From Haloarcula halobia (GTDB taxonomy: Archaea > Halobacteriota > Halobacteria > Halobacteriales > Haloarculaceae): a stretch of 64,000 nt of DNA. The notes beneath the pieces were generated by a model. The model did no database searches. It was not told where the DNA came from and saw only the letters and a list, made by a program, of their open reading frames with translations. The first letter of the stretch is position 1. Every line of letters starts with the position of its first letter. Shown here one piece after another: positions 13,885-32,982 of this stretch. The stretch spans positions 3,239,631-3,303,630 of the forward strand of contig NZ_CP119787.1 in NCBI RefSeq assembly GCF_029338255.1, read 5' to 3'. Both the position numbers and the translations under genes were made by a program.

Positions 13885-15075
13885 ATGCAGATCGACACCG
13901 CGGTCGTCCTCGCAGCCGGGGAAGGGACCCGGTTGCGCCCGCTGACGCGAAACCGGCCCAAGCCGATGTTGCCGGCGGCCAACCGCCCAATTCTGGAACA
14001 CGTCTTCGACGCGCTCGTCGAGGCCGGCATCGAGCGGCTGGTGGCCGTCGTCGGCTTCAAGCGCGACCGGGTCCAGGACCACTTCGGCTCGACGTACCGT
14101 GGCGTACCGATAACCTACGTCGTCCAGGAGAAACAGCTGGGCAGCGGCCACGCGCTTCTGCAGGCCCGCGAGGTCGTCGACGGGTCGCTGCTGGTGCTGA
14201 ACGGGGACCGGCTCATCGACCCGGGGACCGTCGAGGCGGTCGCGAACTCGTTCGCCGAGACCGGCGACACGAGCATCTCGGTGGTCGAGCGCCAGGACAC
14301 CCACCGGTACGGTGCCGTCGAACTCCGTGGCAGCGCCATCACCGAGTTCGTCGAGAAGCCCCAGAGCGACGACTACCGGCTCATCAACGGCGGCGTCTAC
14401 GCCTTCGCCGAGACCATCTTCGACGCCATCGAGGCGACGCCGCGCGAGCACGGCGAACTGGGCCTGACAGACACCATCGAACGCCTGGTCGACCAGGACC
14501 GCGTCCGCGGCGTCGAGGTCGACGGGATGTGGGTCGACGCCACCTATCCCTGGGACCTGCTGTCGGTCGCCCGCGAGGTACTGGCCCGCGGTCGCCTCGT
14601 CGAGCGCCGGCGGGAGAACCGCATCTGGGTCGACGACTCCGCGACCGTCCACGAGCGCGCGGTGCTCCGGGGGCCCGTCGTCGTCGGCCCCGACTGCGAG
14701 ATCGCCCCCGGGGCCGTCGTCGGCCCCAACACCGCGCTGGGGAGCAACGTCACCGTCGGCGCGAACGCCGTCGTCGAGCGCTCGGTGCTCGACGCCGACA
14801 CGCGCGTCGACCCCGGGTCGACGCTCATCGATACCGTCACCGGCCAGGGCGTCGACCTCGGCGCGAGCACCGTCGTCCCCGGCGGCCCCGCCGACGTCCA
14901 GGTCGGCACCGAGGTGTTCGAGGACCAGCGTCTCGGCGCCGTCATCGCCGACCGGGTCAGCGCCCGCGGGAACGTGAGTTTCGACCCCGGCGCGCTCGTC
15001 GGCCCGAACGCCACGCTGCACGCCGGCGTGACCGTGAACGGGAACGTCCGCGAGAGCGCGGAGGTGGTCCGCTGA
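13885..15075 (+). CDS. glmU: GlmU-like sugar-1-phosphate nucleotidyltransferase with left-handed beta-helix domain
   Basis: The 396-residue protein has an N-terminal nucleotidyltransferase domain: VVLAAGEGTRLRPLTRNRPK, the uridylyltransferase loop, with YVVQEKQLGSGHALL and FVEKPQSDDYRLINGGVYAF. From about residue 245 a hexapeptide-repeat left-handed beta-helix follows (VVGPDCEIAPGAVVGPNTAL, NVTVGANAVVER), as in bifunctional acetyltransferase/uridylyltransferases. With glmS directly downstream, the likely role is GlcN-1-P acetylation and UDP-GlcNAc synthesis. The archaeal enzymes are shorter than bacterial GlmU. TGA and the glmS ATG overlap (TGATG). Confidence 0.85.
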   Translation: MQIDTAVVLAAGEGTRLRPLTRNRPKPMLPAANRPILEHVFDALVEAGIERLVAVVGFKRDRVQDHFGSTYRGVPITYVVQEKQLGSGHALLQAREVVDGSLLVLNGDRLIDPGTVEAVANSFAETGDTSISVVERQDTHRYGAVELRGSAITEFVEKPQSDDYRLINGGVYAFAETIFDAIEATPREHGELGLTDTIERLVDQDRVRGVEVDGMWVDATYPWDLLSVAREVLARGRLVERRRENRIWVDDSATVHERAVLRGPVVVGPDCEIAPGAVVGPNTALGSNVTVGANAVVERSVLDADTRVDPGSTLIDTVTGQGVDLGASTVVPGGPADVQVGTEVFEDQRLGAVIADRVSARGNVSFDPGALVGPNATLHAGVTVNGNVRESAEVVR

Positions 15076-16871
15076 TGTGTGGCATCATCGGCTGTGTCGG
15101 CCGCGATGACGAGACGCTCGAGACGCTCGTCCACGGCCTCTCGAAACTCGAGTACCGGGGCTACGACTCCGCCGGCGTCGCGATCACGAGCGCTGACGCT
15201 CCGGTCGACATCTGCCGGACCGCCGGCAAGATCGACGACCTCCGCGAGTCCCTGGAGGCCGTCTCGCTGTCGGGCACCGTCGGCGTCGGCCACACCCGCT
15301 GGAGCACGCACGGGCCGCCGACCGACGAGAACGCTCACCCCCACCAGGACTGCCACGGCGACGTGGCCGTCGTCCACAACGGCATCATCGAGAACTACCA
15401 GGCGCTCCGTGACCGCCTCGTCGCGGCCGGCCACAACTTCACCTCCGACACCGACACGGAGGTCATCCCCCACCTCGTCGAGGACGCCCTCGAGGACGGG
15501 GCCGAGCCGGAGGCTGCGGTCCGCGAGGCCGTCGCCCAGCTCGAGGGGAGTTACGCCGTCGCCGTCGTCATCGCGGGCACCGAAGCCGTGTTCACCGCCC
15601 GGCACGACTCGCCGCTCGTCCTCGGCCTGGACGGGGACGCGACCTACCTGGGGAGCGACGTCCCCGCGTTCCGCGATTTCACCGACCAGGTCGTCTACCT
15701 GGCCGACGGCGAGTTCGCCCGCCTCGACGCCGACGGCTGGGCCGTCACCGACAGCGACGGCGACGCCGTCGAGAAAGAGGTCAACACCATCGAGTGGGAC
15801 GCCGAGGAGACCGGCAAGAGCGGCTACGACCACTTCATGCTCAAGGAGATTCACGAGCAACCGCGCGCCCTGCGCCAGTGTCTGCGCGGCCGCGTCGACG
15901 AGATGGCCGCCAGCGTCGACATCGGCGACCTGGGCGACCTCTCGCCGACGGGCATCCAGTTCGTCGCCTGTGGCACCTCGTATCACGCGGCGCTCCACGG
16001 CGCCCAGCTGTTCAGAGAGAGCGGCATCCCCGCCCAGGCGTTCCTCGCCAGCGAGTACGCCACGGCGCCCCCGCCGATCGGCGACGCGCTCGTCGTCGGC
16101 GTCACCCAGAGCGGCGAGACGGCCGACACCCTCTCGGCGCTCCGGGAGGCCCGGCGCCGAGGCGCGCGGACGATGGCCGTCACGAACGTCGTCGGGTCGA
16201 CGGCAGCCCGCGAGTGCGACCACGCGTTCTACATCCGCGCCGGCCCCGAGATCGGCGTCGCCGCGACCAAGACCTTCGCCTCGCAGCTGGCCGCCCTCAA
16301 CCTGCTCGCGCTCGGGATGACCAGCTGTCCCGACGCCCGCGAGGTCATCGCAGCCCTACGGGACCTGCCGAGCAACGTCCAGCAGGTCCTCGACGAGTCG
16401 GCCGCCGCCGAGGTGGCCGAACTCTACGAGGACGCGAACGCGTACTTCTTCATCGGCCGCGGCTACCAGCACCCCGTCGCGCTCGAGGGGGCGCTGAAGA
16501 TGAAAGAGATCACCTACAAACACGCCGAGGGCTTCGCCGCCGGCGAACTGAAACACGGCCCGCTCGCGCTCGTGACCCAGCACACGCCCGTCTTCGCCAT
16601 CGTCACCGGCGACGAGGAGCGCGCCCGCAAGACCGTGGGCAACGTCAAGGAGGTCGAGGCCCGTAACGCGCCGGTCGTGGCCATCTCCGACGGCCAGAGC
16701 GACGTCGACCGCTACGCCGACCACGTGCTCGAACTCCCCGAGACCCACCCGCGTGCGGCGGCCATCCTGGCGAACATCCACCTGCAACTGGTCGCCTACC
16801 ACGTCGCCGCTCGGCTAGGGCGCAACATCGACAAGCCCCGCAACCTCGCCAAGAGCGTGACCGTCGAATAG
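15075..16871 (+). CDS. glmS: Glutamine-fructose-6-phosphate aminotransferase (isomerising)
   Basis: The 598-residue enzyme begins MCGIIGCVGR, with Cys2 as the N-terminal nucleophile of the glutaminase domain. Conserved YRGYDSAGVAI, GHTRWSTHG and HNGIIENYQALR follow. Two SIS isomerase domains come next (FVACGTSYHAALHGAQLF, TQSGETADTLSALR, then EGALKMKEITYKHAEGFAAG). The C-terminus ends DKPRNLAKSVTVE, the usual active-site tail. Length matches the family. It makes glucosamine-6-P from fructose-6-P and glutamine, the first step to UDP-GlcNAc, and is coupled to the GlmU-like gene. The final 264 coding bases up to 16860 are duplicated at 31642-31905. Confidence 0.96.
   Translation: MCGIIGCVGRDDETLETLVHGLSKLEYRGYDSAGVAITSADAPVDICRTAGKIDDLRESLEAVSLSGTVGVGHTRWSTHGPPTDENAHPHQDCHGDVAVVHNGIIENYQALRDRLVAAGHNFTSDTDTEVIPHLVEDALEDGAEPEAAVREAVAQLEGSYAVAVVIAGTEAVFTARHDSPLVLGLDGDATYLGSDVPAFRDFTDQVVYLADGEFARLDADGWAVTDSDGDAVEKEVNTIEWDAEETGKSGYDHFMLKEIHEQPRALRQCLRGRVDEMAASVDIGDLGDLSPTGIQFVACGTSYHAALHGAQLFRESGIPAQAFLASEYATAPPPIGDALVVGVTQSGETADTLSALREARRRGARTMAVTNVVGSTAARECDHAFYIRAGPEIGVAATKTFASQLAALNLLALGMTSCPDAREVIAALRDLPSNVQQVLDESAAAEVAELYEDANAYFFIGRGYQHPVALEGALKMKEITYKHAEGFAAGELKHGPLALVTQHTPVFAIVTGDEERARKTVGNVKEVEARNAPVVAISDGQSDVDRYADHVLELPETHPRAAAILANIHLQLVAYHVAARLGRNIDKPRNLAKSVTVE
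16597..16860 (+). repeat. Left copy of the 264-base repeat flanking the glycan island
   Basis: This 3' segment of glmS matches 31642-31905 without gaps and with 10 differences by my count. Seven changes are silent, so both copies evolved under protein selection. Together they bracket about 14.8 kb. Confidence 0.93.
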
Positions 16872-17182
16872 CTGGTCAGTCAGCCCCGCCGGAGTTGCCA
16901 CAGACTTGGCGTCTCACCCACCTACAAAGTTTTAGCACAGTGGAAGGTCGTGTAGGACCGAATTCGGTCGGCCGAACTGATTCATCGCGAATCGGGTCCA
17001 GAAGGACGATTTCCGTCTCTCTACGAGTGTGATGGGCTGCCATCTGGAGCAAAATAGGGGCACAGTCCTTCGGCGTTGTCCAAACATTCGTCCCAGTTGG
17101 TCTGTCTCTCCGTGACTAATTTCGGGGCGTAGTCATCCAGAATGCAAAGGATTTATAATTAGTTGAGTCCTGTCAGCCAATA
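16872..17182 (+). promoter_or_regulatory. Island left border and promoter of the DUF457-like gene
   Basis: This 311-base non-coding stretch follows glmS and marks a visible drop in GC. A TATA-like tttataatta (17151-17160) lies about 25 bases before the ATG at 17183. No gene is seen in it. Confidence 0.45.
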
Positions 17183-17725
17183 ATGTATCCACACGAACAT
17201 TTTCTCCTCGCAGTCGTTCCTGTGGCCATGTTTTCGTTTCTGTTTCTGAGAAAACTTCCGTCTGGAAAGACGACACTGATCTTGCTTATCGCATCGCAAT
17301 TTCCCGATCTGATAGACAAACCCCTCGCGTTCAGCTTGCAGGTGTTACCGAGCGGACGAATGCTCGCCCACTCGGTGGTCGTCTCCGTGCCTCTACTGTT
17401 GGCCCTGATAATTCTGGCAACTCGGTACGGGAGAACTCGGGACGCGTTGGTCTTCGTCTTCGGATATATGTCGCACCTGGTCGGAGATTTCTACAGGGTA
17501 TTCACTCTCGGTACGGAGTATCACTTCTATCCGAACATTTTCTGGCCACTGTTGGAAGCCAATACAGGCAAGCGAGAGTCGTTCGCGGCGTTTTATCCAG
17601 AAAGCACGGCAGACTTGCTGATACCTGTCGGAATATTGCTGCTCGGTCTCGCGTACAGCGTCTTCATGATGTACGCATCCAGGAGTCACAGCCTCGAAAA
17701 GTCGCCTAAACCCGGCGGCCCCTGA
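17183..17725 (+). CDS. YdjM/DUF457-type membrane-bound metal-dependent hydrolase-like protein
   Basis: The 180-residue protein has four or five membrane helices and conserved polar motifs of this family. These are an N-terminal His (MYPHEHFLLA), the acidic FPDLIDKPL after the second helix, AHSVVV, and GYMSHLVGDFYRV. The spaced His/Asp residues look like metal ligands at the membrane face. Proteins of this group occur widely in archaeal envelope and glycan clusters with no proven reaction. It is the first gene of the island; the C-terminal tail is short and polar. Confidence 0.65.
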   Translation: MYPHEHFLLAVVPVAMFSFLFLRKLPSGKTTLILLIASQFPDLIDKPLAFSLQVLPSGRMLAHSVVVSVPLLLALIILATRYGRTRDALVFVFGYMSHLVGDFYRVFTLGTEYHFYPNIFWPLLEANTGKRESFAAFYPESTADLLIPVGILLLGLAYSVFMMYASRSHSLEKSPKPGGP

Positions 17726-18026
17726 TCCGGATAGAGTAAGTAAATACAGAGAAATCTCATCTCCGTTTACAAGCTCTCTGTATGGGAGTGGTGACTTCAT
17801 CTCGACAGATTGGTTGAATACCGTGGCTACCAGCCGACACGGACCGACCAGACACAGCGTTTCCTATTGTACCGCTGAGAATTCTGTCACAAGCAGCGGC
17901 GAAATCAAGCGTTCTACGGCCACACGGCCAAGGAGAGCCACCTCGAAGAGTTCCGACAGGGAACACGAGTCGGGTTCGGAAACGTGAGTCTAACTTTATT
18001 GGCACCGACCTGACCAAATCAATCAG
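17726..18026 (+). other. Intergenic region with a promoter and a possible coding scrap
   Basis: Bases about 17896-17985 are open in one frame (FYGHTAKESHLEEFRQGTRV) with no start and no family I know, perhaps a gene fossil. A TATA-like actttatt near 17994 lies about 30 bases before the next ATG at 18027. Confidence 0.25.
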
Positions 18027-18923
18027 ATGGGTAACATCGAACCAGTTCTGACCGCCGTCGAGACGCCCTCGATGGCCCTGATGAAAGTGAATAAGATATA
18101 TCAACAGATGGTGATCGGGGCGTACAATCCAAGCGGGGTCAAGATTCTCGAAGAAGACTGGGACAATTTGATAATACTTGATGCGTGTCGCGCCGACAAG
18201 CTCCAGGAGACTATCGATATGCGGGGTACGTTTGAGCAACGAACGTCTCGGGGGACCTCGACGCCACACTTTGTCCGCTCGAACTTCGCGAACCGTGAAC
18301 TTCGGGATCTCGTCTACATCTCCGCGAACGGTTGGATAGTGAAGTTGCAGGACGAACTCGGGCTTGATTTCCACGCGATCGAATTTCTGGACGACACGAG
18401 TCGGCAGGATGACGAGGTGAGAGCGATTACGCCAGCTGCGGTGACAGAACGGGCCAGGCAGTGCGCTGATCGGTACCCCCACAAACGCCTGATCGTCCAC
18501 TATGTACAGCCCCACAAGCCCTATCTCGGGGAGTTTGGACGGAGAACGTTCGGTCACGCGAAACGAAATCTCCAGCAGATAATGTCGTCGGGCGAGATAT
18601 CGGAATCCGAGTTGGAAGAAGCCTACCTCGAGAATTTAGAACTGGTTCTGTCGAGCGTAAACGAGCTCATAGGGTCGCTAGAGGGGAAATCTGTCATCAC
18701 GGCAGACCACGGCGAGTTGCTCGGAGAGCGCGTGTCGCCGATTCCGATAAAGGGCTACGGTCATCCGGATCATATCTATCACGACGCCTTGACCGAGGTT
18801 CCGTGGTTCGTCTGTGAGTACCAGACCAGACGTGAAATCCGCGAGGACACCCGGAAACAGGAGACCAGGGTAGGTGAGAAGCGGTTGAGCGAGCATCTCA
18901 AAGACTTAGGGTACGCAGTATAG
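18027..18923 (+). CDS. Sulfatase/alkaline-phosphatase-superfamily protein
   Basis: The 298-residue protein has the superfamily metal motifs: LIILDACRAD (about residues 48-57), SVITADHGELLGE (about 215-227) and GYGHPDHIYHD. The nucleophile region reads RGTSTPHFVRSNF, without the CxPxR formylglycine signature, so classical sulfatase chemistry is uncertain. Related archaeal proteins may instead transfer phospho- or sulfo-groups on surface glycans. There is no signal peptide, implying action in the cytoplasm or at the inner membrane face. It ends in LKDLGYAV, a tail motif shared with other genes of this island. Confidence 0.72.
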   Translation: MGNIEPVLTAVETPSMALMKVNKIYQQMVIGAYNPSGVKILEEDWDNLIILDACRADKLQETIDMRGTFEQRTSRGTSTPHFVRSNFANRELRDLVYISANGWIVKLQDELGLDFHAIEFLDDTSRQDDEVRAITPAAVTERARQCADRYPHKRLIVHYVQPHKPYLGEFGRRTFGHAKRNLQQIMSSGEISESELEEAYLENLELVLSSVNELIGSLEGKSVITADHGELLGERVSPIPIKGYGHPDHIYHDALTEVPWFVCEYQTRREIREDTRKQETRVGEKRLSEHLKDLGYAV

Positions 18924-19104
18924 GCCTTTCGTGGCCAGGGACGGACATAGTTCGCCGGCCGGCGCGAATCCCAGTTCTGTCGGGACATCGGCAGTGAAAC
19001 AACGGCCGTGCGTCTTCCATTGTATACCTGCAGCGGGTGTGAAGCCGGACTGCACCACTATAGCCACCACATTCTCTTTATGTTGTTCTCTGTGGGTCGA
19101 TACG

Positions 19105-20256
19105 ATGGACGTAGCCTTCGTTACATCAGCGTACCCGCCGAGGAGTCCTGGTGGGGCAGGGACGAGCAGCAAGCTGATAGTGGAGGGGCTGCGAGACGCC
19201 GGGGTTCACGTCGATATTTTTGCTCTAACCGAAGACGGCGCAGACCCAGTGCGGATGCAGGATAACCGATATCATCTGCCAGATGGCACCCACTACGGCG
19301 TGCCCATAGCGATCGGTGAAAACCTCAGTGCGTACTTCCACCTCCCGGACTTGCACGAGTACGACGTGATTCACGTATACAACGTACGGCACCTTCCAGC
19401 GTGTGTTCTCCGTGCCGACCCACCGGTAGTTGCGACGTACAATAACCACATGTGGACCTGCATCGATCCGGTTGCGCACCTGAGTGACGGAGTCCCGGAA
19501 TGTAGCCTCCGGCATAGAATACGGTATGCGAAGACGAAGGGGTATACCGGGGTAACATGTCTCCCTCGAGTTGCATTTAACATGCTCGGAAAATCCATCG
19601 CCCAGCAAGCCGACCTGCTCACAGTGCAGACGGAGGGAATGAAATCGGTCTTATCTAAAAGTGGCTACGAGAGCGATAACATCCGGAAAGTACCCAATAT
19701 ACTGGATGACCGGTTTATAGTAGAGCCTGAGAACGAAAAAGAGATACTGTTCGTCGGGCGGCTAAAACCGTCGAAAGGGCCGAAAACCGTTCTCGAGGCG
19801 TTTCAGTCGTTGTCTCAGCAGTACGAAGATTGGTCCTTGCGATTGTATGGGAAAGGAGAGCTAGAAGGGGAGATACGGGACTTGATCGAAGGCGATTCAC
19901 AGGTATCGCTAGAGTATTGCCCGTACGATAGCCTTCCATCTGTCTATAAGAACGCAAGTGTCCTAGTCCATGCGTCCCGGTACACGGAGCCGTTTTCGCG
20001 AAGTTGGCTCGAAGCGATGGGTTCGAAAACCTCAATCGTCTGTTCGGAGAACCCGAGCTCGGTCGATATTCTCGGTGACATCGCTGTCCTGTACGATCCG
20101 TTCAGCTCGAGCGACCTGGCACGGACCCTGGAGAGGGTCCTTTCACGGCCGGCATTGAGAACCGAGATGGCACATGCAGGATACGACGCAGTAACGAAGT
20201 ACAGACCGGAAAAGATCGTCGACGGATACATTTCTGCCTACGATGAATGCAGATAG
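19105..20256 (+). CDS. GT4-family glycosyltransferase
   Basis: The 383-residue protein has the GT-B architecture. The N-terminal Rossmann half starts MDVAFVTSAYPPRSPGGAGTS. The C-terminal half contains EILFVGRLKPSKGPKTVLEA, LRLYGKGELEGEI and the donor-binding stretch VHASRYTEPFSRSWLEAMGS, where the E...SxxLEAMG pattern marks family 4. It likely adds a sugar to a lipid-linked glycan in the cytoplasm. The start at 19105 is taken because GT4 proteins begin at this strand; the upstream codons from 18931 look non-coding. Confidence 0.85.
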   Translation: MDVAFVTSAYPPRSPGGAGTSSKLIVEGLRDAGVHVDIFALTEDGADPVRMQDNRYHLPDGTHYGVPIAIGENLSAYFHLPDLHEYDVIHVYNVRHLPACVLRADPPVVATYNNHMWTCIDPVAHLSDGVPECSLRHRIRYAKTKGYTGVTCLPRVAFNMLGKSIAQQADLLTVQTEGMKSVLSKSGYESDNIRKVPNILDDRFIVEPENEKEILFVGRLKPSKGPKTVLEAFQSLSQQYEDWSLRLYGKGELEGEIRDLIEGDSQVSLEYCPYDSLPSVYKNASVLVHASRYTEPFSRSWLEAMGSKTSIVCSENPSSVDILGDIAVLYDPFSSSDLARTLERVLSRPALRTEMAHAGYDAVTKYRPEKIVDGYISAYDECR

Positions 20257-20406
20257 CCGCCAGTTTGCGTCTCGGCGTGGAATGCTGAGTTATATTGTAC
20301 GTCTCGGGCGAGTTTCATCACAACGCGACACCACCGGAATGAACAGTTTGAATCGCAAATATCGTCCACATTCCTATTTACCCCCACAGCCATCGTAGAA
20401 AACACA

Positions 20407-21420
20407 ATGTCCGGGACGAACGTTTGGCGGAGGGTCTATACCCATCTCAGGCGAGTCCCGGTCGATATCGCCGTGGTAATCGTTCTGATTGCGCTGACAG
20501 CCCTGGTGGTCACGCTGTCTCATCCCGCTACCAACCTTCTCAGAATCGCGCTGGGGGTTTCGGTTCTACTCTTTGTCCCGGGTTACACGCTGATTGCAGC
20601 CATCTTCCCTGAGTCCGAGCTCCGTAGCTCGGATACACCGAGAGAGGGGACTGTAGAGGTATCTCCGTTGGAACGACTAGTTCTCTCGATCGCGACTAGC
20701 CTCGCGCTCATCCTGTTCACTGGACTCCTCTTGAATTTCTCTCCCTGGGGGATCAGATTACACCCGGTAGTTATCGGTCTCACCGTGCTGACGCTCCTTC
20801 TCTCCTGTATCGCGACTTTTCGACGTTTTCGACTTCCCGAAGAAGAACGGTTTCAGGTCGGGTATACGCAATTGACGTCGATCGAGTGGATCGAGAACCG
20901 TGGCCCCGACTCGACATTCGATTCGGTGCTGAACGTCATCGTCGTACTCAGTGTGCTGACGGCCGGTGTAACAGCGCAGTACGCGTTGACGAACCCCAAC
21001 CAGGGCGACCGATTTACCGAGTTTTACCTGCTGAGCGAAGATGCGGATGGAGATCTCGTCGCAGACGACTATCCAACGGAGTTTCGACGGGGCCAGAGCC
21101 GATCACTGGTAATCGGCGTCGAAAACCAGGAGTACGAAACGGTCGATTACAGCGTCGTCGTGGAACTACAACACGTCGAGACGACCGGACCCGAGCCAGA
21201 AGTGATGACTGTCTCCGAAATCGGGAGTTACAATCTAACACTGGCCCACAGCCGAAGCTGGCAGTACCGTCATGAAGTTACGCCTCGGATGACGGGCCGG
21301 AACCTCCGGTTACAGTATCGGCTCTACAAGAATCCGGGCACGTCCCCCTCGAGAGATGAGGAACCCTATAGAGAGGTCCACTTGTGGATAAACGTTTCAA
21401 CACTCGATGGGGACTTCTGA
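20407..21420 (+). CDS. DUF1616 membrane protein
   Basis: The 337-residue protein has four N-terminal membrane helices (IAVVIVLIALTALVVTL, IALGVSVLLFVPGYTLIAAI, LVLSIATSLALILFTGLLL, VVIGLTVLTLLLSCIATF) and a fifth near residue 180. An outside beta-rich domain of about 140 residues completes it. FVPGYTLIAAIFPE is the DUF1616 signature. These proteins accompany archaeal exopolysaccharide and S-layer glycosylation genes; the biochemical role is unknown. Confidence 0.75.
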   Translation: MSGTNVWRRVYTHLRRVPVDIAVVIVLIALTALVVTLSHPATNLLRIALGVSVLLFVPGYTLIAAIFPESELRSSDTPREGTVEVSPLERLVLSIATSLALILFTGLLLNFSPWGIRLHPVVIGLTVLTLLLSCIATFRRFRLPEEERFQVGYTQLTSIEWIENRGPDSTFDSVLNVIVVLSVLTAGVTAQYALTNPNQGDRFTEFYLLSEDADGDLVADDYPTEFRRGQSRSLVIGVENQEYETVDYSVVVELQHVETTGPEPEVMTVSEIGSYNLTLAHSRSWQYRHEVTPRMTGRNLRLQYRLYKNPGTSPSRDEEPYREVHLWINVSTLDGDF

Positions 21421-21596
21421 GCTCTTGAGACGATTCTCTGACCTCCGATTGGGCCCGGGTCTCCCTACTGTACTGACGCTGGTGATCGGCGAAATCAGCA
21501 AAGGACCGGTCTGTGGATATCAGAGTGAGTAGAAGGCAATCGGAACCGTGGGCAGCAGAAAGCGTATATATCTATGTGCAGAAATGTCATCAAGGA

Positions 21597-21800
21597 ATGA
21601 GTACAAAGACGCTGGAAATATCCGGTGAGCTTTACGAGAAAGTGGAGAACCGGGCTGTAAATTCGAATTTCGAATCCGCCGACGAATACGCGGAGTATCT
21701 CATCCGGAGCGTGCTCCAGCAGTTTGATCCTGTGGACGAATTAGCCGATGAAGAAGCCGTGAAAGACCGTCTGCAGTCACTGGGTTATCTCGACACCTGA
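21597..21800 (+). CDS. Small ribbon-helix-helix-like protein with a sulfatase-type C-terminal tail
   Basis: The 67-residue product MSTKTLEISGELYEKVENRA has the beta-strand plus two-helix pattern of RHH (MetJ/Arc) proteins, with FESADEYAEYLIRSVLQQF as the helix pair. The tail EEAVKDRLQSLGYLDT is unusual: its LxxLGY ending also closes the sulfatase-like proteins ending at 18923 and 24966. It overlaps the convergent sulfatase gene by 16 bases at the stops. It could be a local regulator or accessory factor for the sulfatase group; this is inference. Confidence 0.55.
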   Translation: MSTKTLEISGELYEKVENRAVNSNFESADEYAEYLIRSVLQQFDPVDELADEEAVKDRLQSLGYLDT

Positions 21801-23101
21801 CTCGCTGACAGGGCACTGTCACCGATGGCAGATCGCAGTCGCTTTTTCTCGATCTGTTTCGCCGTCTTCACGTTCGCTAGTCTTTCAAACTGCGCTACGA
21901 GGTCCCTGTTCGGGTCGGCTATGTTGGTCATTTCGTTCGAGTCTGCGTGCAGGTCGTAGAGTTCGGGTCCTTCCGGTGTCTGAATGTATTTGTAGCGCTT
22001 TCCCCGGATCGAACAGTAATGGGGGGTGTAATTCATTTTCTTCGCCCGTCGATTCGCTACCGGGATACTTTCTACGTCAGACAGTACGAAGTCGGTGGTC
22101 AGGTGACCGAGAGAATCTGCTCGACCTTCGGTTAGAAGCTCTACAAGCCGTGGAAGTGTCGACAATGAGAGAGGGTCCGTCACGGCATCGTTCTGGTCGG
22201 TTCCGTGAATCAACAGTGGAACACGGATGTTCTCCTCGAACAGTTGCTGTTCGTGCCCGTACGTTGCGTGGTCCCCGTGCGATTCCCCGTGATCGGAGTG
22301 CATCAACAGGATTGGCGCCGATGCCTCGAGGTCCTGTGCAAGCCGCCTGATGAATTCGTCAGCTGAGCGAGCCGCATCCCGGTAACATTCTTTCAGCCAC
22401 TGTTCGGAGTGTTCTGACAGCCCTTCAGCTCGACCGCGAGCATAGTTCAGCAGCGAAAGGTACATCTTCAGGCCGCTGGAATCCTCCCGGAAATCGCGGG
22501 GGACGATATATGGCTGATGTGTGTCCATCAGGAAAATCCACACGAAGTACGGCTCGTCCAACGACCGTACGCGTTCTCTTATTTGGTCATAATATCCTGC
22601 CCAGTGACTCAACCATTCACGTCGGCTTTCCCACTTCAAGAAGTCGGTCTGTCCAATCTTCTCGAGAAAGTAATCGAACCCACGAACAGTCTTCATGTCA
22701 GTAAATGCGTCGACGCCGTTTTCCGAAGCAGGATTGAGCTCGACGAACTCATCGAAGATGTCGTCGAATCCAGTATCGATCGCTGTCCAGGGGTTCGCCG
22801 AAAAGCCGACCGTCGTATATCCCGATTGCGATACCCGTTCGGGGATGGTCGAATGAGTCCGAAGATGGTGTCTGATAGCGTTCCGCTGGGATCTCATGTG
22901 ATAGCCGTCGTGTCTGTTGAATTCACCAGTCAACAGAACTGGTATCGAGGACGGTGTTCGGGGCCCTGGAGAGATCGCGTTTTCAAAAATCAGGCTGCGG
23001 TCGGCTATGGAACTAAGGAACGGAGTACAGCCGGTATCGCCGATAAACCCGCAGGTGTCTGCTCGTAAGCTGTCGACCGTAATCATCAAAATATTCCTCA
23101 T
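21785..23101 (-). CDS. Sulfatase-superfamily hydrolase or transferase
   Basis: The 438-residue protein starts MRNILMITVDSLRADTCGFI, with the first metal-binding Asp pair, followed by the active-site loop PRTPSSIPVLLTG. This loop aligns with the (C/S)xPxR motif but has SIPVL, so the conserved Arg is absent. The second metal site is ILLMHSDHGESHGDHATYGH. The C-terminal half has the family GKRYKYIQTPEGPELYDLHADSNEMTNI block that closes many sulfatases. No signal peptide is seen. It may remove or transfer sulfate or phosphate groups on the surface glycan. Confidence 0.85.
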   Translation of the reverse strand: MRNILMITVDSLRADTCGFIGDTGCTPFLSSIADRSLIFENAISPGPRTPSSIPVLLTGEFNRHDGYHMRSQRNAIRHHLRTHSTIPERVSQSGYTTVGFSANPWTAIDTGFDDIFDEFVELNPASENGVDAFTDMKTVRGFDYFLEKIGQTDFLKWESRREWLSHWAGYYDQIRERVRSLDEPYFVWIFLMDTHQPYIVPRDFREDSSGLKMYLSLLNYARGRAEGLSEHSEQWLKECYRDAARSADEFIRRLAQDLEASAPILLMHSDHGESHGDHATYGHEQQLFEENIRVPLLIHGTDQNDAVTDPLSLSTLPRLVELLTEGRADSLGHLTTDFVLSDVESIPVANRRAKKMNYTPHYCSIRGKRYKYIQTPEGPELYDLHADSNEMTNIADPNRDLVAQFERLANVKTAKQIEKKRLRSAIGDSALSASQVSR

Positions 23102-23278
23102 CTTTGTTTTGGGTTTTGTTTCAATCTATCGTCATTATCACAACGATTTTATACCTCGGTTCTGATAACTAAATTGGTATTATTCCTCAATTAGAAGACC
23201 CGGTTTGTCTCTCGTGTACTTACACGAGATGGAGTTCCGGATACAATAGTTAGTTGCCACCAAACGAGGCCGACGAGA

Positions 23279-24805
23279 ATGACTGAGACCTCACCGCTGG
23301 TTAAATTGGCTCAAAGTGCCGCGTTAGTTTTTGTTGCGTCAGTTGTCGGTCGTTTGTTAGGCTTGGTAGCGGAAATCGTAATTGTCAGGTCACTCGCACC
23401 AACGACTTACGGTCGAATCGCGCTGGCGTTCACGATCATCTCATCGCTGGGGAGTATCATTTTGCTCGGCGTCCACGAAGGTGTCACCCGACAGTTTTCT
23501 TCGCTCAAGTCGGACACAGAACAGCTGAAGGTAGTTCTCTCTGGCTACACAATTGTACTGGCATCTGGAATTTTTACCGCCCTGATCGTCTATTCTCTGC
23601 GTCACCCGATATCCGAGCTGGTAAACGACGAGAATATCGTCGTGCCTCTTTCGTTGTTCATTCCCTATCTAGTCATCTACCCACTCTCTGTAACGTCATT
23701 TGCGACACTCCGGGCGAGGGAACAGACCCTGAAGGCCATGATGTCACGCCCCTTGGGCGGTCGTCTCGTCGCATTGCTCTTACTCGGTCTCTTTTTTTCG
23801 CTCGGCGAGAACTATTACGGGGCGATCGTCTACTGGATTGCGTTCCCGGCGTTCACACTACTGTTCTCGGTCTATTTCATGCGAGATTTCGCGACTACTA
23901 ACGCGGTGTCGGAGTCCCTGCCGGATCGGACGACGATAGTAGATCTGTTCGCATTTTCGTGGCCCCTTGCGATAAGTTCGGTCGTGTTTCTGCTGCTTGC
24001 AAACCTCGATATCCTGATGATCGGCTACTTCCTGGACGCGGAATCTGTCGGGTTTTATCGGTCTGTACAGCCGTTCAAACAGGTGGCGACGTTTGGAATG
24101 TCAGCGTTCACGTTCATATTTCTACCACTGGCTACCAGATATTACGAGCAAGATAGGATAGACCAGCTCGAGGAGATGTTCACTGTTTCGACGAAGTGGA
24201 TCCTGCTTATTACCCTCCCACCCTTACTCGTCTTTGCGCTCTTTTCGGGAGCAGTTGTTCAACACTTCTTCGGGAACGAATACTTGCCGGCAAGTCCCGT
24301 CTTAGCGGTTCTGACCGGCGGTCTTCTGTTCAGGGCTATCAGTGGGCTCGATGGACCGATGGTCAAAGCGATCGACCGCCCCCGTATCGAACTGTATTCA
24401 GCGATCCCGGGCTTTGTCGTGAACTTCGTCATGAACGTGGTGCTGATTCCAGCGTATGGAATCGTCGGGGCTGCCGTGGCGACGATACTCGGCTACGCGG
24501 TCTACAATTCGATCGAGCTGGGGTGGATATATTTCAGTAAAGATATCCACCCGTTTTCGATAGACACGACCAAATTCCTCGTCGCGATGATCGCCTTCGG
24601 AGGGGGTCTCTCGGTGGTGATACCGAGGCCACTCGGCATTCTCGGACTGATCGGACTTGGCGTGGTTTTCGTCCTGGTTCAACCACTCCTCCTCCTGCTT
24701 ACGAGGAGCATTGACGAGGAAGACATTAGGTTGATCGACGAGATAGAATCGCGATTCGGGATCGATCTGACCAAAGTGAAACAAATCGCGAAGAAAGGTG
24801 TCTGA
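23279..24805 (+). CDS. Wzx-like polysaccharide flippase
   Basis: The 508-residue protein has about 14 membrane helices and begins VKLAQSAALVFVASVVGRLL followed by GLVAEIVIVRSLAPTTYGRI, the MOP/MATE-type start of oligosaccharide flippases. FKQVATFGMSAFTFIFLPLA and RPRIELYSAIPGFVVNFVMN are also typical. It should flip the lipid-linked glycan from the inside to the outside of the membrane. Its stop codon lies at the edge of an 80-base inverted repeat. Confidence 0.88.
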   Translation: MTETSPLVKLAQSAALVFVASVVGRLLGLVAEIVIVRSLAPTTYGRIALAFTIISSLGSIILLGVHEGVTRQFSSLKSDTEQLKVVLSGYTIVLASGIFTALIVYSLRHPISELVNDENIVVPLSLFIPYLVIYPLSVTSFATLRAREQTLKAMMSRPLGGRLVALLLLGLFFSLGENYYGAIVYWIAFPAFTLLFSVYFMRDFATTNAVSESLPDRTTIVDLFAFSWPLAISSVVFLLLANLDILMIGYFLDAESVGFYRSVQPFKQVATFGMSAFTFIFLPLATRYYEQDRIDQLEEMFTVSTKWILLITLPPLLVFALFSGAVVQHFFGNEYLPASPVLAVLTGGLLFRAISGLDGPMVKAIDRPRIELYSAIPGFVVNFVMNVVLIPAYGIVGAAVATILGYAVYNSIELGWIYFSKDIHPFSIDTTKFLVAMIAFGGGLSVVIPRPLGILGLIGLGVVFVLVQPLLLLLTRSIDEEDIRLIDEIESRFGIDLTKVKQIAKKGV

Positions 24806-24884
24806 TACTGCCGGCTGTACGTTCGTAAAGATTCTCGGCACCCCGGGATGCCGAGTATTTTCTACATGTTACAGCCGGCAGTAT
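24805..24884. repeat. 80-base nested inverted repeat between convergent genes
   Basis: The outer arms atactgccggctgta (24805-24819) and tacagccggcagtat (24870-24884) are perfect 15-base complements. An inner hairpin ctcggca/tgccgag (24834-24855) is nested inside. The left arm begins in the last base of the flippase stop codon. It could be a bidirectional terminator, a small MITE-like insert, or a structured RNA. Confidence 0.9.
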
Positions 24885-24965
24885 GAGCCACACCGTCTGA
24901 TGCCGAACAGCAGGACGCTGCCGACTTACCGAGCACTGTTAGGACGGTTCCCCACGACGTGCATT

Positions 24966-26291
24966 TTACATGTAGCCAAGTGATTCGAGTTGGTCTCTGG
25001 TGACCTGTGGGACGCTCCCGCTCTGACTCCCGGTCTCCCATCGGTCCGGGAGTTCTTCGTACAGTACTGTGGCGACGGAGTCGGGGATCTCACCGAAGGC
25101 CTCTTCGCCGTCGATTTTCGCCTCGAGTGTGACCCCGTCGGCTTTCGAGTGGACGAGCTTCCACTCGTTTCGATACACGGCCTTCCGTTCCACACCGTAG
25201 CGCGCTCCTTCGCAGACGACCGCACGATCGGTTGGGATTCTCTCGTGCCAGCTCCTCCCAGGTATGTCGTGCTCACCCGTGACAGATTCAAGCAGCGTCG
25301 CCGGGATGTCTCGTAGCGACCCCCATCCACCAGTCGGCGTGAGCGACTCTCCAGTCGGTGCCCAGCAACCAATCGGCACTCTCGAAACGACGTCAAAGGG
25401 CGTCCCTCCATGTCCCAAACAGTGGTTGGGTCGTGAGTCGGTTATCTGCCGGTCTTGAGCTTGGTGCTCCCACAACGCTTCGCCGTGGTCTCCACAGATA
25501 ATCACCAACGTGTCGTCCTTTATCTCTTCAAACAGACTCCAGATGCGGTCAGAAACATACGCGAGTGCTGCCCGATGGAGCCGGAATTTGTGTTCTCTGT
25601 ATCGGACACATTCAGGGTTGGTCTCGTCAAAGTCAGTCCGGTAGCGCCGAATATACCTGAGATCGGGAAGCGACATATCTACGTCGTGGTCGTCAAGATA
25701 CGCTTGGGGCGCTCCGACTGGAGCATGAAGGTCTCCGAGATGAAGATAGCCCGCAGTGCGTGGGCGGCCCCGTCTCCAGTCCCGGTACCCTTCGATGACC
25801 ACCGAGGCCTGCGCATCAGAATAGCACCGGTGGTTCTGGTACCAACCGGTTATTGCTTGGAACGGCATGGGAAACGCACACCCCGCATACGTATCGTAGC
25901 CTGCAGATTCTAACTTGCCGGGTAAATGTGGGTCTGCAGCAGTCTGTGCGGGAATCGCGAGGCCATCGTCGTTGGTGGCTGTATTTGTTACTGCGCCGTG
26001 CTCACTGGGTCGGAGTCCGGTATGCATGCTCGTTACCGACGGATAGGTCCAGGGGGCGGGTGCGATGGCGTGCGAGAACTCTATCGGGAGGTCTGGGACG
26101 AAGTCGGGGCGGAGAGCATCGATGACGATCAGTAATAGGTGAGGAGGGGCATCCGACCGCGGCTGAATTGGTTTCGACGGAGGCTCGTGCGCTCTGTCAG
26201 CAGAGAACGATCGATAACGAAAATATACCGATTTGAGTGGTTCCGCTGCTGCCTCCGGGAGAGCAGACGCCACACTCGAGACGACGTTCAT
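24966..26291 (-). CDS. Sulfatase-superfamily protein
   Basis: The 441-residue protein shows the first metal motif HLLLIVIDALRPDFV (about residues 52-66). The active loop APWTYPSVTSMHTGLRPSEHG has Ser/Thr in place of a Cys-formylglycine signature. The second metal motif is TLVIICGDHGEALWEH, with GHGGTPFDVVSRVP. The C-terminus ends QLESLGYM. A downstream strand region (YRNEWKLVHSKADGVTLEAK) resembles the closing block of sulfatases. The N-terminal 35 residues are not a clear signal peptide. It is likely to modify the same glycan as its neighbours. Confidence 0.82.
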   Translation of the reverse strand: MNVVSSVASALPEAAAEPLKSVYFRYRSFSADRAHEPPSKPIQPRSDAPPHLLLIVIDALRPDFVPDLPIEFSHAIAPAPWTYPSVTSMHTGLRPSEHGAVTNTATNDDGLAIPAQTAADPHLPGKLESAGYDTYAGCAFPMPFQAITGWYQNHRCYSDAQASVVIEGYRDWRRGRPRTAGYLHLGDLHAPVGAPQAYLDDHDVDMSLPDLRYIRRYRTDFDETNPECVRYREHKFRLHRAALAYVSDRIWSLFEEIKDDTLVIICGDHGEALWEHQAQDRQITDSRPNHCLGHGGTPFDVVSRVPIGCWAPTGESLTPTGGWGSLRDIPATLLESVTGEHDIPGRSWHERIPTDRAVVCEGARYGVERKAVYRNEWKLVHSKADGVTLEAKIDGEEAFGEIPDSVATVLYEELPDRWETGSQSGSVPQVTRDQLESLGYM

Positions 26292-26376
26292 TCGTTTCGT
26301 CAGAGTGGGCCCGCTCCGGTATGATTATAGAGGAGTTTCTCTCCACAGGGGACCGATATAGGAGTCAAAACAACGC

Positions 26377-28053
26377 TCACCGGAGATTGTAGATAGCGAC
26401 CCCCCCATTTGAATAGAAGCGGTTGTACTGTCGGCTCGAATCGAGGGTTCGTTCCGGGTTCCACAACAGACGATATCGGCCACCCTTCAATCGCCAGACT
26501 TCCACGTTAGTGCGTATCGAGATATATCGATACCCGTGTTCTAGTAACGTGTTGTTCTTGAGCTCTTTACTCAAGAGCCCCTGGTCGTAAGTCGGATTCG
26601 GCACGGTCTCCTGGGGTTGATCGCCCCGACCCGCTGCTCTCTCGAAATCGACGACTTCATCGCCATAGTACAAGTCGGTGTAGACCACGTCCTCCACGTA
26701 CTCGTTGCCGAAGTGTTTACCCTCGACTTCTTGGGTGGACAGATACTCACGTGGCGTCCCCGGAAAGTCCGGCATCGTGACGACCGCAAACGGATTCGCG
26801 ATCAGAATCGCGAGTAAGACGATACCGGCCACAGAGCGGTGCCATCGTCTGGTAGAGCGTGCAAAGTGAACGATTCCGATTCCGATCAGCGCCGCGACGA
26901 AGGCCGATGCATACACGTAGGTGCGCTGAAATCCCGGACCGGCACCCACGATGCCAGGGAGTGTTACGCCGACCGTCACGAAGGCCGCAGCCTGGAGGAC
27001 TCTCACGTTCTCCCGGGTATATTGACAGAACAATAGGAGTCCCGCGACAGCGCCGGTCCCGACCGTGATGAAAAAGTACGACAGGTTCCGGAGTTTGGTT
27101 ACAAGCGGTGGGTCGATTGGAGTCGCTTCTGCCGGTTTAACAGGCGTGTATGCGGTCGGGACTTCGGCGAGCCCGAAGACATCGTAGATCAGTATCGTCG
27201 CCGTTTGAAAATATTCGGTGATGTACACCCACTGGACTCCGAGCACGACGATGGCAAGGGTCGTCGCCACTACCATTTTACGAAGCGAGACCTCTGGCGT
27301 GGAGAGACGCGTCAACGCGGTATACCCAACGCTGACCAATCCAATCAGGGCGAACAGAAAGAGGGGGATCTTGTGAGTCAAGCTCCCTGCGAGGGATAGT
27401 AAGGCGAAAACGACCCCCGCCTGCCATACGATACGGTTGTCGGGACTGATTACGAGTACGAGTACGATAGCAGACAGAAATATCGCGGCGAGTGCTATCG
27501 GGATCGGAGCGATCCCAAACAGGAACGTCGGTGCTCCGACGGTAACGACAGCAGCGGCAACTAACGAGGCGCTGTTGTCGCCTGCCACTCGCGCCGCTAG
27601 TGCACCTGCACTCAGAGGTAATGAGACTCCAACTGCGATAGGGAAAATCACGAAGGCACTGTCGACCTGGAGCCCGGTTACGAGCGAACTCAGTGCGCCG
27701 ATTAGATTGAATCCCGGTGCTGCGGAGTAGAATCCCGTCGGGAGACCAGTGAGGTCGCCGTTTTCGATGATGACCCTGCTACGGACCGCATGAGCGTCCG
27801 GGTCCAATCGCATCATGCTCGGCGCGAACAGATACGCGTACACTCGACCGGCCACGGCGAGTAACGTGATCGTCACAATACCGGAGATTGGAGACGCGTT
27901 TGACCGGATGGTACTCACCAGAATCGCACACGAGGCGAGTGCCATGCCAGCCGGCAGACCGGGATATAAACGGCCCGTCATATGCGTATGCAGCATCGCC
28001 ACTGTGAGTCCGACGGCACTGACGATAACGCCGAACTTTTGAGGCCGGTCCAC
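26377..28053 (-). CDS. Multi-pass membrane protein, probable GT-C-type glycosyltransferase
   Basis: The 558-residue protein has about 12 hydrophobic helices. An extracytoplasmic loop after helix 3-4, MMRLDPDAHAVRSRVIIENG, contains an acidic motif placed where GT-C enzymes (STT3/PMT relatives) hold their catalytic Asp. The C-terminal 130 residues are soluble and rich in aromatic residues. It may transfer the lipid-linked sugar or oligosaccharide outside the cell, or polymerise it. Without a profile search the GT-C assignment is tentative; a simple DUF membrane protein is the alternative. Confidence 0.6.
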   Translation of the reverse strand: MDRPQKFGVIVSAVGLTVAMLHTHMTGRLYPGLPAGMALASCAILVSTIRSNASPISGIVTITLLAVAGRVYAYLFAPSMMRLDPDAHAVRSRVIIENGDLTGLPTGFYSAAPGFNLIGALSSLVTGLQVDSAFVIFPIAVGVSLPLSAGALAARVAGDNSASLVAAAVVTVGAPTFLFGIAPIPIALAAIFLSAIVLVLVISPDNRIVWQAGVVFALLSLAGSLTHKIPLFLFALIGLVSVGYTALTRLSTPEVSLRKMVVATTLAIVVLGVQWVYITEYFQTATILIYDVFGLAEVPTAYTPVKPAEATPIDPPLVTKLRNLSYFFITVGTGAVAGLLLFCQYTRENVRVLQAAAFVTVGVTLPGIVGAGPGFQRTYVYASAFVAALIGIGIVHFARSTRRWHRSVAGIVLLAILIANPFAVVTMPDFPGTPREYLSTQEVEGKHFGNEYVEDVVYTDLYYGDEVVDFERAAGRGDQPQETVPNPTYDQGLLSKELKNNTLLEHGYRYISIRTNVEVWRLKGGRYRLLWNPERTLDSSRQYNRFYSNGGVAIYNLR

Positions 28054-28525
28054 ATTGAACGCACCCGGTTGACGGGATATGAATATAGACTACCTTAGTT
28101 CTTCAAGCACGGCGATAGAGACGTGCCCGCGTCGGGAACCCGCGCCGTAGGTGGGTTCGGAAGTGGATAGGAAGGAGGGAGACTCGCCGTGACGGGCGCA
28201 GCCAACTGCCAACTTCGAGACACCAGTCGACGAGCGATGTGGGGAAGTTCTGTTCCCCAGGTCCGCGTCGCCACAAGCACACACCGAACGACACCGTACA
28301 ACACCGGCGTCCGAGACGTCGTAATATGAGCTTACTCCGTATCGATTACAACGTCAGACAGCAGAGGAGAGCCCCCGTATGTCGGTACTGCGCGGTCAGG
28401 ACGTGTCGTCTCCGGGCCGTTCGACTTGTCTCCCACGGGAGAACTCGCGGTGCTGCACAAAGTGGTACGTTTCTGCAGACGGCTGGTAAGAATCCATTAC
28501 CCCGGATACCGGCAGGCACAGGACG
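28054..28525. other. GC-rich intergenic region, no gene recognised
   Basis: This 472-base gap separates divergent genes and is more GC-rich than the island before it. Short open frames exist on both strands (about 60-70 codons at 28090-28304) but none shows a family motif. It must hold the promoters of both flanking genes; I see no clear TATA box. Confidence 0.35.
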
Positions 28526-30157
28526 ATGGCAAAAGACAACACGGACGGTCGGGAGATAGCGCGCGGGGACGGGGATACCTCCAGGTCACCCTGGCACCGG
28601 AGGACAGTGTTGAAGGCGAGTGGCCTCGCGGCCGCGGCGGGACTTGGTCTCGGACGGGTCGGGACGGCACGGAGCGCGAAAAAGCCCGGTAGTAGTGGCG
28701 AGGGGGTCTACGTCGAGGCCGGCGCGCAAGTCGCATCGACGCCCGACGATATACAGGACGCGGTAGACAGGCTAGGCAGCGACGGTGGGACGGTCAAGCT
28801 CGAACCAGGCAGCTACGGCGACGGTGACTGGACGACGGGTATCGAGCTCCCCGACGGACTCTCGAAATCCACACTCATCATCGACTGCCAGGGCGCCAGC
28901 GTCGACCTGTCGTCGTGGGACGGCACGGCGTTCTTCGGGAAACCCGAGGAGACCAGCAGCGGCAACGTAGGGACCGTCGTGATCAAGGACCTGTATGTTA
29001 ACTGCTACGGCGTGCCGGCTGGAGATCTCTCGACGTTCGTCAGGCTGCCGGACGTGACGCGGTCGACGTTACGCTACACCGCTATCGGCGAGTTCGACAT
29101 CGGGACGTACATCTATGCGTCGGGGACAGCGAGCAGTTGCCACCACAACACGACTCGCATCGAGCACAAACTACCGGATATCGGGCTGAAACTGGGCAAG
29201 AAGAGCGCATCGCTGGGCGTTGACCGCGGCGAGTACCGGATGCAAGTTGACCGGGTGGGCGATGCAGGCTGCGAGGTGGCAAACGGTGGCTGGAACGAAC
29301 TGTACATCCAGACGGAGAATGCACGCGCCGACGTGGCCGACGGCGCCGTCGACGGCGTCCGAACCCTGTCGGCGGCGGCGTCCGGCGGGGACGGCCAGGG
29401 TCACGATAACATCGTCAAACTGCTGCACCGAGTGACGAACGCCGACGATGCCGTCTCCGCCCGCATCGAAGGTGAACGGAATCGCGTCGACGCGCCGGGA
29501 GCGGGGTCCAACGCCAGCATCGACAAACTGGCGCCGATGGTCCCACCCGCGGATATTGATATGGCGGGCTGGACCGCGACCGAAGCGTCCCACCTCGATA
29601 TGACCATTCGATTCGAGACGGCCACTCGCGGCGACGGTCAGGCGCCGACACGCAACGACTGGGGCCAGGTCCTGCTCGATGCCGGGACGGGCACCGGTGA
29701 CACGTCCCAGCTGTCGGCAGCCGGCGAGGCGGACCTGGGCCGCGGTGCGATGGCGTTCGCCCGTGGCAACGCCCCCGGCAGTGGGGGCGTCCTGCGGGTC
29801 GGGTGGCGGGAGACGAGTGATACGTACGCCGCCATCGAACGAGACGTCTCCACCGACAGCATTCGCGTCGACGTGGTCATCGATGGGGCCTCGGTATCGG
29901 GCTTCCCGGTGGCGACCGACCGCGGTGCCGGGGGACGCACGGATCTGTACGCCTGGAACGGGACGGACGACGACGGCGACGTTCGGCAGTTCTGGGGTGT
30001 CAACAGCGAGATCGTCGCGGCAACGACAGCCGACCTCGAGGCTCTCGGGAACAGCACTGTCACGCCGGCGGTCTGGGCCACGAGCGACGGCACGGATACG
30101 CGCTTTGGCCTGACGCGGGCTGGGTTTGGCGTCCGTGACAACAACGCTAATTCCTGA
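28526..30157 (+). CDS. Tat-exported protein with beta-helix-like N-terminal domain
   Basis: The 543-residue protein carries a twin-arginine signal (WHRRTVLKASGLAAAAGLGL). It then has a pectin-lyase-like segment: YVEAGAQVASTPDDIQDAVD and GGTVKLEPGSYGDGDWTTGI, as in secreted beta-helix proteins. Strand-rich repeats continue to about residue 330. The rest is a second beta domain of unknown type. The Tat route is normal for haloarchaeal exoproteins. It could bind or process the cell-surface or environmental polysaccharide. No catalytic triad is evident. Confidence 0.65.
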   Translation: MAKDNTDGREIARGDGDTSRSPWHRRTVLKASGLAAAAGLGLGRVGTARSAKKPGSSGEGVYVEAGAQVASTPDDIQDAVDRLGSDGGTVKLEPGSYGDGDWTTGIELPDGLSKSTLIIDCQGASVDLSSWDGTAFFGKPEETSSGNVGTVVIKDLYVNCYGVPAGDLSTFVRLPDVTRSTLRYTAIGEFDIGTYIYASGTASSCHHNTTRIEHKLPDIGLKLGKKSASLGVDRGEYRMQVDRVGDAGCEVANGGWNELYIQTENARADVADGAVDGVRTLSAAASGGDGQGHDNIVKLLHRVTNADDAVSARIEGERNRVDAPGAGSNASIDKLAPMVPPADIDMAGWTATEASHLDMTIRFETATRGDGQAPTRNDWGQVLLDAGTGTGDTSQLSAAGEADLGRGAMAFARGNAPGSGGVLRVGWRETSDTYAAIERDVSTDSIRVDVVIDGASVSGFPVATDRGAGGRTDLYAWNGTDDDGDVRQFWGVNSEIVAATTADLEALGNSTVTPAVWATSDGTDTRFGLTRAGFGVRDNNANS

Positions 30158-30284
30158 ACGTCGGCCTACCAGGCACGGTATATTCCGCAGCCCTGCGCGA
30201 GATGGACTGAGATCACTCCGTCGTTCCGGCTCTGAAGGGTCGTCGACGCAGTGCCTGCGAACGAACAGGGCGTTGCGTCAGTAG

Positions 30285-31439: not shown

Positions 31440-31641
31440 ATGTATCCCATTCTGAGATTTGCTCGGTGTCTTTCCTGCAGGCCGATCAGAGCGATATGCA
31501 TACTCGACATCAGGGTAGGATACGGGAAGTGCATCAGGCCCTCTACTGGACGTAGCCGGTCAGCTATCTTCGTTACGTATCGGTTATAGCGACACAGATG
31601 GCGATCAAAGGAGTTTCACAGCTGTGTGCATGAGCGCCTCA

Positions 31642-31905
31642 CCATCGTGACCGGCGACGACGAGCGCGCCCGCAAGACTGTGGGCAACGTCAAGGAAGTC
31701 GAGGCCCGCGACGCGCCGGTCGTGGCCATCTCCGACGGCCAGAGCGACGTCGGCCGCTACGCCGACCACGTGCTCGAACTCCCCGAGACCCACCCGCGTG
31801 CGGCGGCCATCCTGGCGAACATCCACCTGCAACTGGTCGCCTACCACGTCGCCGCTCGGCTAGGGCGCAACATCGACAAGCCGCGCAATCTCGCCAAAAG
31901 CGTGA
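31642..31905 (+). pseudogene. Truncated second copy of the glmS 3' end
   Basis: The frame IVTGDDERARKTVGNVKEVE ... DKPRNLAKSV matches the last 88 residues of GlmS before its final three codons. At nucleotide level there are 10 differences in 264 bases against 16597-16860. There is no promoter or catalytic N-terminus, and after KSV the frame runs on into unrelated sequence. This is therefore a non-functional remnant of another glmS allele. It marks the right border of the surface-glycan island. Confidence 0.93.
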
Positions 31906-32925: not shown

Positions 32926-32982
32926 ACGGACGGGCAGATTTCGAGGTATTCGGCCCCACGACGGAGACCGGTGACGACGATG

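Follow-up and report, generated by a model that had tools for sequence, protein, structure and literature searches.

Sulfation of the N-glycan of Halobacterium salinarum was shown genetically in 2025 to involve two members of the alkaline phosphatase (AP) superfamily, Agl30 (VNG1056C) and Agl31 (VNG1057C), which occur in both membrane and soluble fractions (PMC11980604). Deletion of Agl30 and of Agl31 lowered the di-sulfated N-glycan 250-fold and over 50-fold, and both proteins cause sulfation when expressed in Haloferax volcanii (PMC11980604); the main text of that report contains neither the word "threonine" nor "PAPS" (3′-phosphoadenosine 5′-phosphosulfate). In Hfx. volcanii, sulfation of dolichol phosphate-hexose requires agl7 (PMC3871713). 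The sulfated-exopolysaccharide (EPS) cluster of Haloarcula hispanica, HAH_1661-1667, includes a gene, HAH_1666, with an annotation placing its product in the arylsulfatase A family; the EPS contains 26% (wt/wt) sulfate by infrared spectroscopy and ion chromatography, and deletion of HAH_1662 or HAH_1667 abolishes acidic EPS (PMC5467301). A dolichol phosphate-linked sulfated hexuronic acid has also been described in Har. hispanica (PMC9943897). Here, we examine three sulfatase-fold proteins, A18, B21, and C24, encoded in a 64,000-nucleotide stretch of the Haloarcula halobia genome (contig NZ_CP119787.1, positions 3,239,631 to 3,303,630; here, "the window," numbered from its first letter). With slightly more confidence than doubt, we read all three as cytoplasmic AP-superfamily proteins that use a Thr nucleophile to add sulfate to a lipid-linked precursor of EPS, or of a related glycan, before the precursor is flipped.

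The open reading frames (ORFs) of A18 (18027 to 18923, forward strand; 298 amino acids), B21 (21785 to 23101, reverse strand; 438 amino acids), and C24 (24966 to 26291, reverse strand; 441 amino acids) were confirmed at these coordinates, and inspection of the translations bore out the initial annotation in that none contains CxPxR. B21 and C24 match PF00884 (E values of 1.6e-30 and 2.1e-10), C24 also matches a second Pfam family, PF01663 (Phosphodiest), and A18 is recognized by neither Pfam nor NCBIfam. The formylglycine (FGly) signature C/S-x-P/A-x-R is missing: B21 and C24 have Thr and no Arg, and A18 reads S-T-P-H. The residue in the column of the FGly Cys is T79 of TPHFV in A18 (codon 18261 to 18263, forward strand), T49 of TPSSI in B21 (codon 22955 to 22957, reverse strand), and T82 of TYPSV in C24 (within WTYPSVTS; codon 26046 to 26048, reverse strand); the profile of the B21 family places T49 opposite the FGly Cys of the solved sulfatase 6hr5. 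TPHFV had been named correctly for A18, whereas the motifs given earlier for B21 (SIPVL) and C24 (YPSVT) were out of register, beginning three residues and one residue late. The metal sites are kept, as had been claimed, with ligands identified by alignment in all three proteins (D52, D227, and H228 in A18; D10, D270, and H271 in B21; D58, D268, and H269 in C24). Sulfatases typically carry a D-N pair at this site; all three proteins have D-H instead, and the second N-terminal Asp is substituted in each (DS, DA, and DA). Both the Thr nucleophile and the D-H site are predictions assigned by alignment and conservation rather than from coordinates.

The predicted nucleophile is conserved within each family. 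All 29 A18 family members have Ser or Thr at position 79, and Thr occupies the column in 28 of 29 members of the B21 family and 7 of 8 of the C24 family, the remaining member in either case showing a gap; T82 is invariant in the seven aligned C24 family members, which share the motif WT(F/Y)P(S/A). In a wider B21-like set of proteins scoring above 60 bits against the family profile, the column holds 38 Thr, 5 Ser, and 1 gap among 44 haloarchaeal sequences and 85 Thr, 3 Ser, 2 Cys, and 1 gap among 91 from other organisms. Residue 81 of A18 is His, whereas it is Glu in 27 of the 29 family members. A C-terminal LxxLGY tail is common to A18, C24, most of their relatives, and many B21-like proteins and is absent from B21; the cloning primers for VNG1056C and VNG1057C encode this tail as well.

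The same signature extends across the host genome (3.48 Mb in two contigs). It has 16 matches to PF00884. In the 15 that show the column, the residue is Thr in 14, Ser in 1, and Cys in none. The remaining match is the C-terminal fragment of a disrupted gene, and Thr is present in the N-terminal part of that gene; two of the 14 Thr-type matches are identical in their compared parts and in score. Thr in place of the FGly Cys is thus ordinary in this genome and not special to the island. The small replicon (C2) appears to hold a Thr-type PF00884 gene in duplicate (41938 to 43038 and 117547 to 118647), along with an intact and a broken copy of another PF00884 gene (34721 to 35643 and 110326 to 111249). 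The FGly-generating enzyme (FGE; PF03781) had 0 matches in the host genome, compared with matches in 4 of 14 control genomes, in a search that did not extend to the radical-SAM maturase. Because none of these 15 matches has Cys and no FGE was found, we see no evidence in the genome of FGly sulfatases of this family. That the three proteins are ordinary secreted FGly sulfatases with an overlooked motif, as PF00884 matches might suggest, has next to no probability given the Thr or Ser in every family and the lack of an FGE match or export signal; we rejected this reading on the Thr at the Cys column, the lack of Cys in the 15 genomic matches that show it, and the missing FGE.

The initial annotation saw no clear signal peptide, and our checks agree. 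Maximum 19-residue hydropathy, in windows starting in the first 60 residues, was 0.71 for A18, 0.86 for B21, and 1.35 for C24; RR was absent from the first 35 residues of all three, and the hydropathy check revealed no N-terminal membrane anchor or transmembrane segment. A degradative sulfatase would need export, and a degradative role is therefore counted less likely. The three genes also sit among glycan-assembly genes, not among genes for uptake or degradation. The proteins might instead be hydrolases of the Thr type, phosphodiesterases or sulfatases acting to trim or recycle glycan precursors in the cytoplasm: the fold and active site are also those of phosphonate monoester hydrolases and sulfatases, and C24 has its match to Phosphodiest. 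We regard this as quite improbable given the assembly setting and the opposite direction of the Agl30/Agl31 phenotypes, in which deletion lowers and expression raises sulfation (PMC11980604). Transferases, not degradative sulfatases, are the best available reading of these sequences, a reading backed by the fit of the Agl30/Agl31 genetics and of the Har. hispanica sulfated-EPS cluster.

C24 is 44 to 47% identical (44% over 445 amino acids) to the product of a Har. hispanica gene (locus L222, 11848 to 13185) that immediately precedes HAH_1667 and, from its position, is taken to be HAH_1666. The published HAH_1662 and HAH_1667 primers map to L222:3018 and L222:13355 with 0 mismatches at both starts (PMC5467301); one primer part elsewhere has 1 mismatch. 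The Har. hispanica cluster also holds two A18-type genes and a relative (38%) of the Wzx-type flippase encoded between B21 and C24 (23279 to 24805, forward strand). Full-length similarity and shared neighbors both support orthology of C24 and HAH_1666. The island thus resembles, in gene content, a Haloarcula EPS cluster, and because its neighbors match that cluster, EPS is a likelier target than the S-layer glycan first proposed.

Relatives of the three proteins are spread unevenly. The next-best nine matches of C24 are 41 to 53% identical over most of the protein, and some match at an E value of 0.001 occurs in 80 of 98 genomes (its own included), mostly a partial match of the sulfatase family; a search for related loci with C24 alone as the query found none. 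B21 has relatives at 1e-30 in 31 of 116 genomes of the family (its own included), none of them in another genome of its own genus among the matches listed, and A18 has relatives at 1e-10 in 103 of the 116. In Halocatena marina, members of all three families are clustered in a 4.7-kb stretch (L089:6538-11254).

In the mechanism that we favor, a metal held by D10, T49, D270, and H271 (B21 numbering, with equivalents in A18 and C24) would activate the Thr, which would take a sulfuryl group from a donor to form a covalent sulfo-threonine. The sulfo-threonine would then hand the sulfuryl group to a sugar hydroxyl, and the Wzx-like protein at 23279 would flip the sulfated lipid-linked precursor. We infer sulfate as the group, the transferase direction, the lipid-linked acceptor, the cytoplasmic site, and the covalent intermediate alike.

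The initial annotation had proposed structure prediction of the active sites as a check, and A18 and C24 were modeled. The A18 AlphaFold model (pLDDT 79.9, pTM 0.80) has an AP-superfamily fold, and that of C24 is weaker (pLDDT 62.6, pTM 0.72). T79 is the first residue of helix 79-87 in A18, the position expected of the superfamily nucleophile, and T82 likewise opens helix 82-91 in C24. EptA, MCR, and EptC lead the Foldseek results for A18, whose first 19 matches are all phosphoethanolamine transferases; in VIA-align, the best match is EptA (Z of 15.8, root mean square deviation [rmsd] of 3.4, 208 residues aligned), with a phosphonate monoester hydrolase and a sulfatase at a Z of 14.7. C24 aligns with EptC at a Z of 18.9 (rmsd of 3.4, 264 aligned) and, in effect tied with it, sulfatase 6hr5 at 18.6 (rmsd of 3.9, 299 aligned); LtaP and YejM are among its top Foldseek rows. 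Since the EptC and sulfatase values tie, fold does not tell sulfate from phosphate chemistry.

EptA/LtaS-type enzymes use a catalytic Thr, and EptA, MCR, and LtaS are membrane anchored and act outside the cytoplasm. The three proteins could by analogy be phospho-group transferases, the Thr moving a phosphate-type group, such as phosphate or phosphoglycerol, onto the glycan from a nucleotide or an archaeal lipid. The Thr nucleophile and D-H metal site favor such chemistry, as do the leading A18 and C24 structural matches and the lack of a PAPS-making enzyme of the tested families (PF01747 and PF01583) in the genome. The enzymes compared are nevertheless anchored and extracytoplasmic, whereas A18, B21, and C24 have no anchor, and the phosphotransferase and sulfatase Z values lie close together for both proteins modeled. 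The difference in mass between sulfate and phosphate is about 10 mDa, so low-resolution mass spectra cannot separate them. The Agl30/Agl31 genetics name sulfate (PMC11980604), and ion chromatography found sulfate in Har. hispanica EPS (PMC5467301). On balance, we consider phosphate transfer unlikely, though a live alternative. The earlier proposal of a sulfated or phosphorylated glycan made by transferases holds in that the proteins are probably not FGly sulfatases, are apparently not secreted, and lie in a putative polymer-assembly cluster; the choice between sulfate and phosphate is not settled by sequence.

Several observations weigh against sulfate transfer to EPS by all three proteins. 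Phosphotransferases lead the Foldseek matches of A18, and its Thr/D-H site is also phosphotransferase-like, as described above; transferase activity in H. halobia is a prediction. The sulfate donor appears not to be accounted for. Sat-type ATP sulfurylase (PF01747) was not found in the host genome, in a search that did not cover CysDN-type sulfurylase, and PF01583 revealed no true adenosine 5′-phosphosulfate (APS) kinase, its sole match being rejected because it falls on the P-loop of an FtsY-like gene. Among the controls, PF01747 likewise has no match in E. coli or Hfx. volcanii, and its negative result therefore does not exclude a CysDN-type enzyme. With no donor accounted for, the phosphate alternative is kept alive. 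When 23 regions (20 kb each) containing A18- or C24-type genes were compared, a glycosyltransferase was found in only 12, a lower bound because the test set has five sequences; by the same five-sequence test, none was present in three overlapping stretches of the window taken as controls. None was found, either, among the annotated Halocatena marina neighbors, in a scan that covered part of the ORFs at that locus. No deletion of HAH_1666 itself was found in the literature consulted. The likeness to Agl30 and Agl31 rests on fold and cluster setting, not on direct sequence comparison, and a third AP-like Halobacterium gene, VNG1063H, showed no role in N-glycan sulfation (PMC11980604).

The last point bears on a further possibility, which overlaps our preferred explanation: that the three proteins differ in function, two of them being sulfotransferases, for example, and the third either inactive or a modifier of lipids. 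They belong to three distinct families, A18 has His at the otherwise conserved E81, and VNG1063H is a precedent for a member without a detectable role. A quantitative PCR (qPCR) primer for VNG1063H translates to VHYFQPH, which carries the A18 family motif HYxQPH; this is suggestive only, and the A18 family may thus include a member without an N-glycan role. The catalytic set is kept in all three proteins, and we give a division of labor a substantial chance while not expecting it. Attempts to place the Halobacterium genes gave no locus. Halobacterium genome G192 (100% bacteriorhodopsin identity) has a glycan contig (contig 17; L173) with three other AP-superfamily genes; the NRC-1 VNG1056, VNG1057, and VNG1063 primers were not found on that contig, the VNG1056C qPCR primer (2 mismatches or fewer) was not found in the genome, and 24 VNG primers or primer parts indicated no consistent locus among those compared. 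Two candidates were dismissed: the 327- and 459-amino-acid proteins of contig 17 as VNG1056C and VNG1057C, contradicted by the primer-encoded ends, and a 1-mismatch match of the 1056-up primer at window position 36457, which lies in an AglF-type gene and was taken as a conserved motif.

Sulfotransfer_3 (PF13469) was also not found in the host genome, in a search that did not include PF00685; its absence counts in favor of our preferred reading. Since the genome shows neither Sulfotransfer_3 nor an APS kinase or a Sat-type ATP sulfurylase, we speculate that haloarchaea may run a large and mostly unrecognized class of AP-fold sulfotransferases with a bare Thr, a cytoplasmic sulfo-threonine intermediate, and a donor other than PAPS, an idea that we think rather unlikely to hold in full. 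A literature search on haloarchaeal ATP sulfurylase and PAPS found nothing, and one for Thr-nucleophile sulfotransferases found none in haloarchaea besides PMC11980604.

The initial annotation also enlisted a UDP-sulfoquinovose-synthase-like gene (38814 to 39986, reverse strand) as support for a sulfated glycan. Its product is homologous to SQD1 (1qrr; E value of 1.8e-72) and scores 353.6 bits against the NF041015 equivalog, for which the cutoff is 575. SQD1-type enzymes make a sulfonate, with a C-S bond, and not a sulfate ester. The gene lies 12.5 kb away, grouped with an AglF-type gene scoring above its NCBIfam cutoff. We judge this to be a separate, sulfonate pathway that does not by itself appear to support O-sulfation, and we set the claim aside. 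The Har. hispanica N-glycan contains 6-sulfo-QuiN (PMC9943897).

Other genes of the island encode a YdjM-family membrane protein (17183 to 17725, forward strand), with relatives in two other C24 clusters of the genus Haloarcula; two GT4 glycosyltransferases (18931 to 20256, forward strand, and 30285 to 31439, reverse strand) and a DUF1616 membrane protein (20407 to 21420, forward strand); and a 558-amino-acid protein without a Pfam family (26377 to 28053, reverse strand), which may be polymerase-like and has a 26% relative in locus L226. Two proteins with RR-type (Tat-like) N termini, encoded at 28526 to 30157 (no Pfam hit) and at 6361 to 7947, resemble secreted surface proteins by eye. GC content is 0.56 at 16872 to 31620, compared with 0.708 at 13885 to 16871 and 0.645 at 31950 to 46000. 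A 267-bp portion of the glmS 3′ end (16594 to 16860) recurs as a direct repeat at 31639 to 31905 with 95.9% identity. The island is thereby flanked by a complete glmS on one side and a partial copy on the other, as though it had arrived or been duplicated at this site.

Many glycan genes labeled "sulfatase" in haloarchaea are probably biosynthetic, and the Thr-for-FGly signature offers a simple way to reannotate them. The C24-type gene beside a characterized sulfated-EPS pathway in the genetically tractable Har. hispanica makes mechanism and donor directly testable. Proteins of this kind are already published, the first genetic proof that we found dating from 2025; the novelty here may lie in a Thr signature of general occurrence and in the lack of a recognizable donor.

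Compared with known systems, A18, B21, and C24 share with FGly sulfatases the fold and overall motif order and differ in having no Cys or FGly, no CxPxR Arg, D-H rather than D-N, a replaced second N-terminal Asp, no signal, and a genome without an FGE match. With EptA/MCR/EptC and LtaS/LtaP they share the fold, the Thr, and the D-H metal site; unlike these, they lack the N-terminal anchor with an extracytoplasmic domain, and identity in the structure alignments is 12 to 20%. The HAH_1666 cluster likewise has a C24-type gene with a Wzx relative and A18-type genes alongside, but it has two A18-type genes, and a B21-type gene is absent from the 20 kb compared. Agl30 and Agl31 act on an N-linked tetrasaccharide, whereas the neighbors here point to EPS; in common are an AP/sulfatase-like fold, genes in a glycan-assembly cluster, and no export, with a cytosolic or membrane-bound location predicted for the three proteins.

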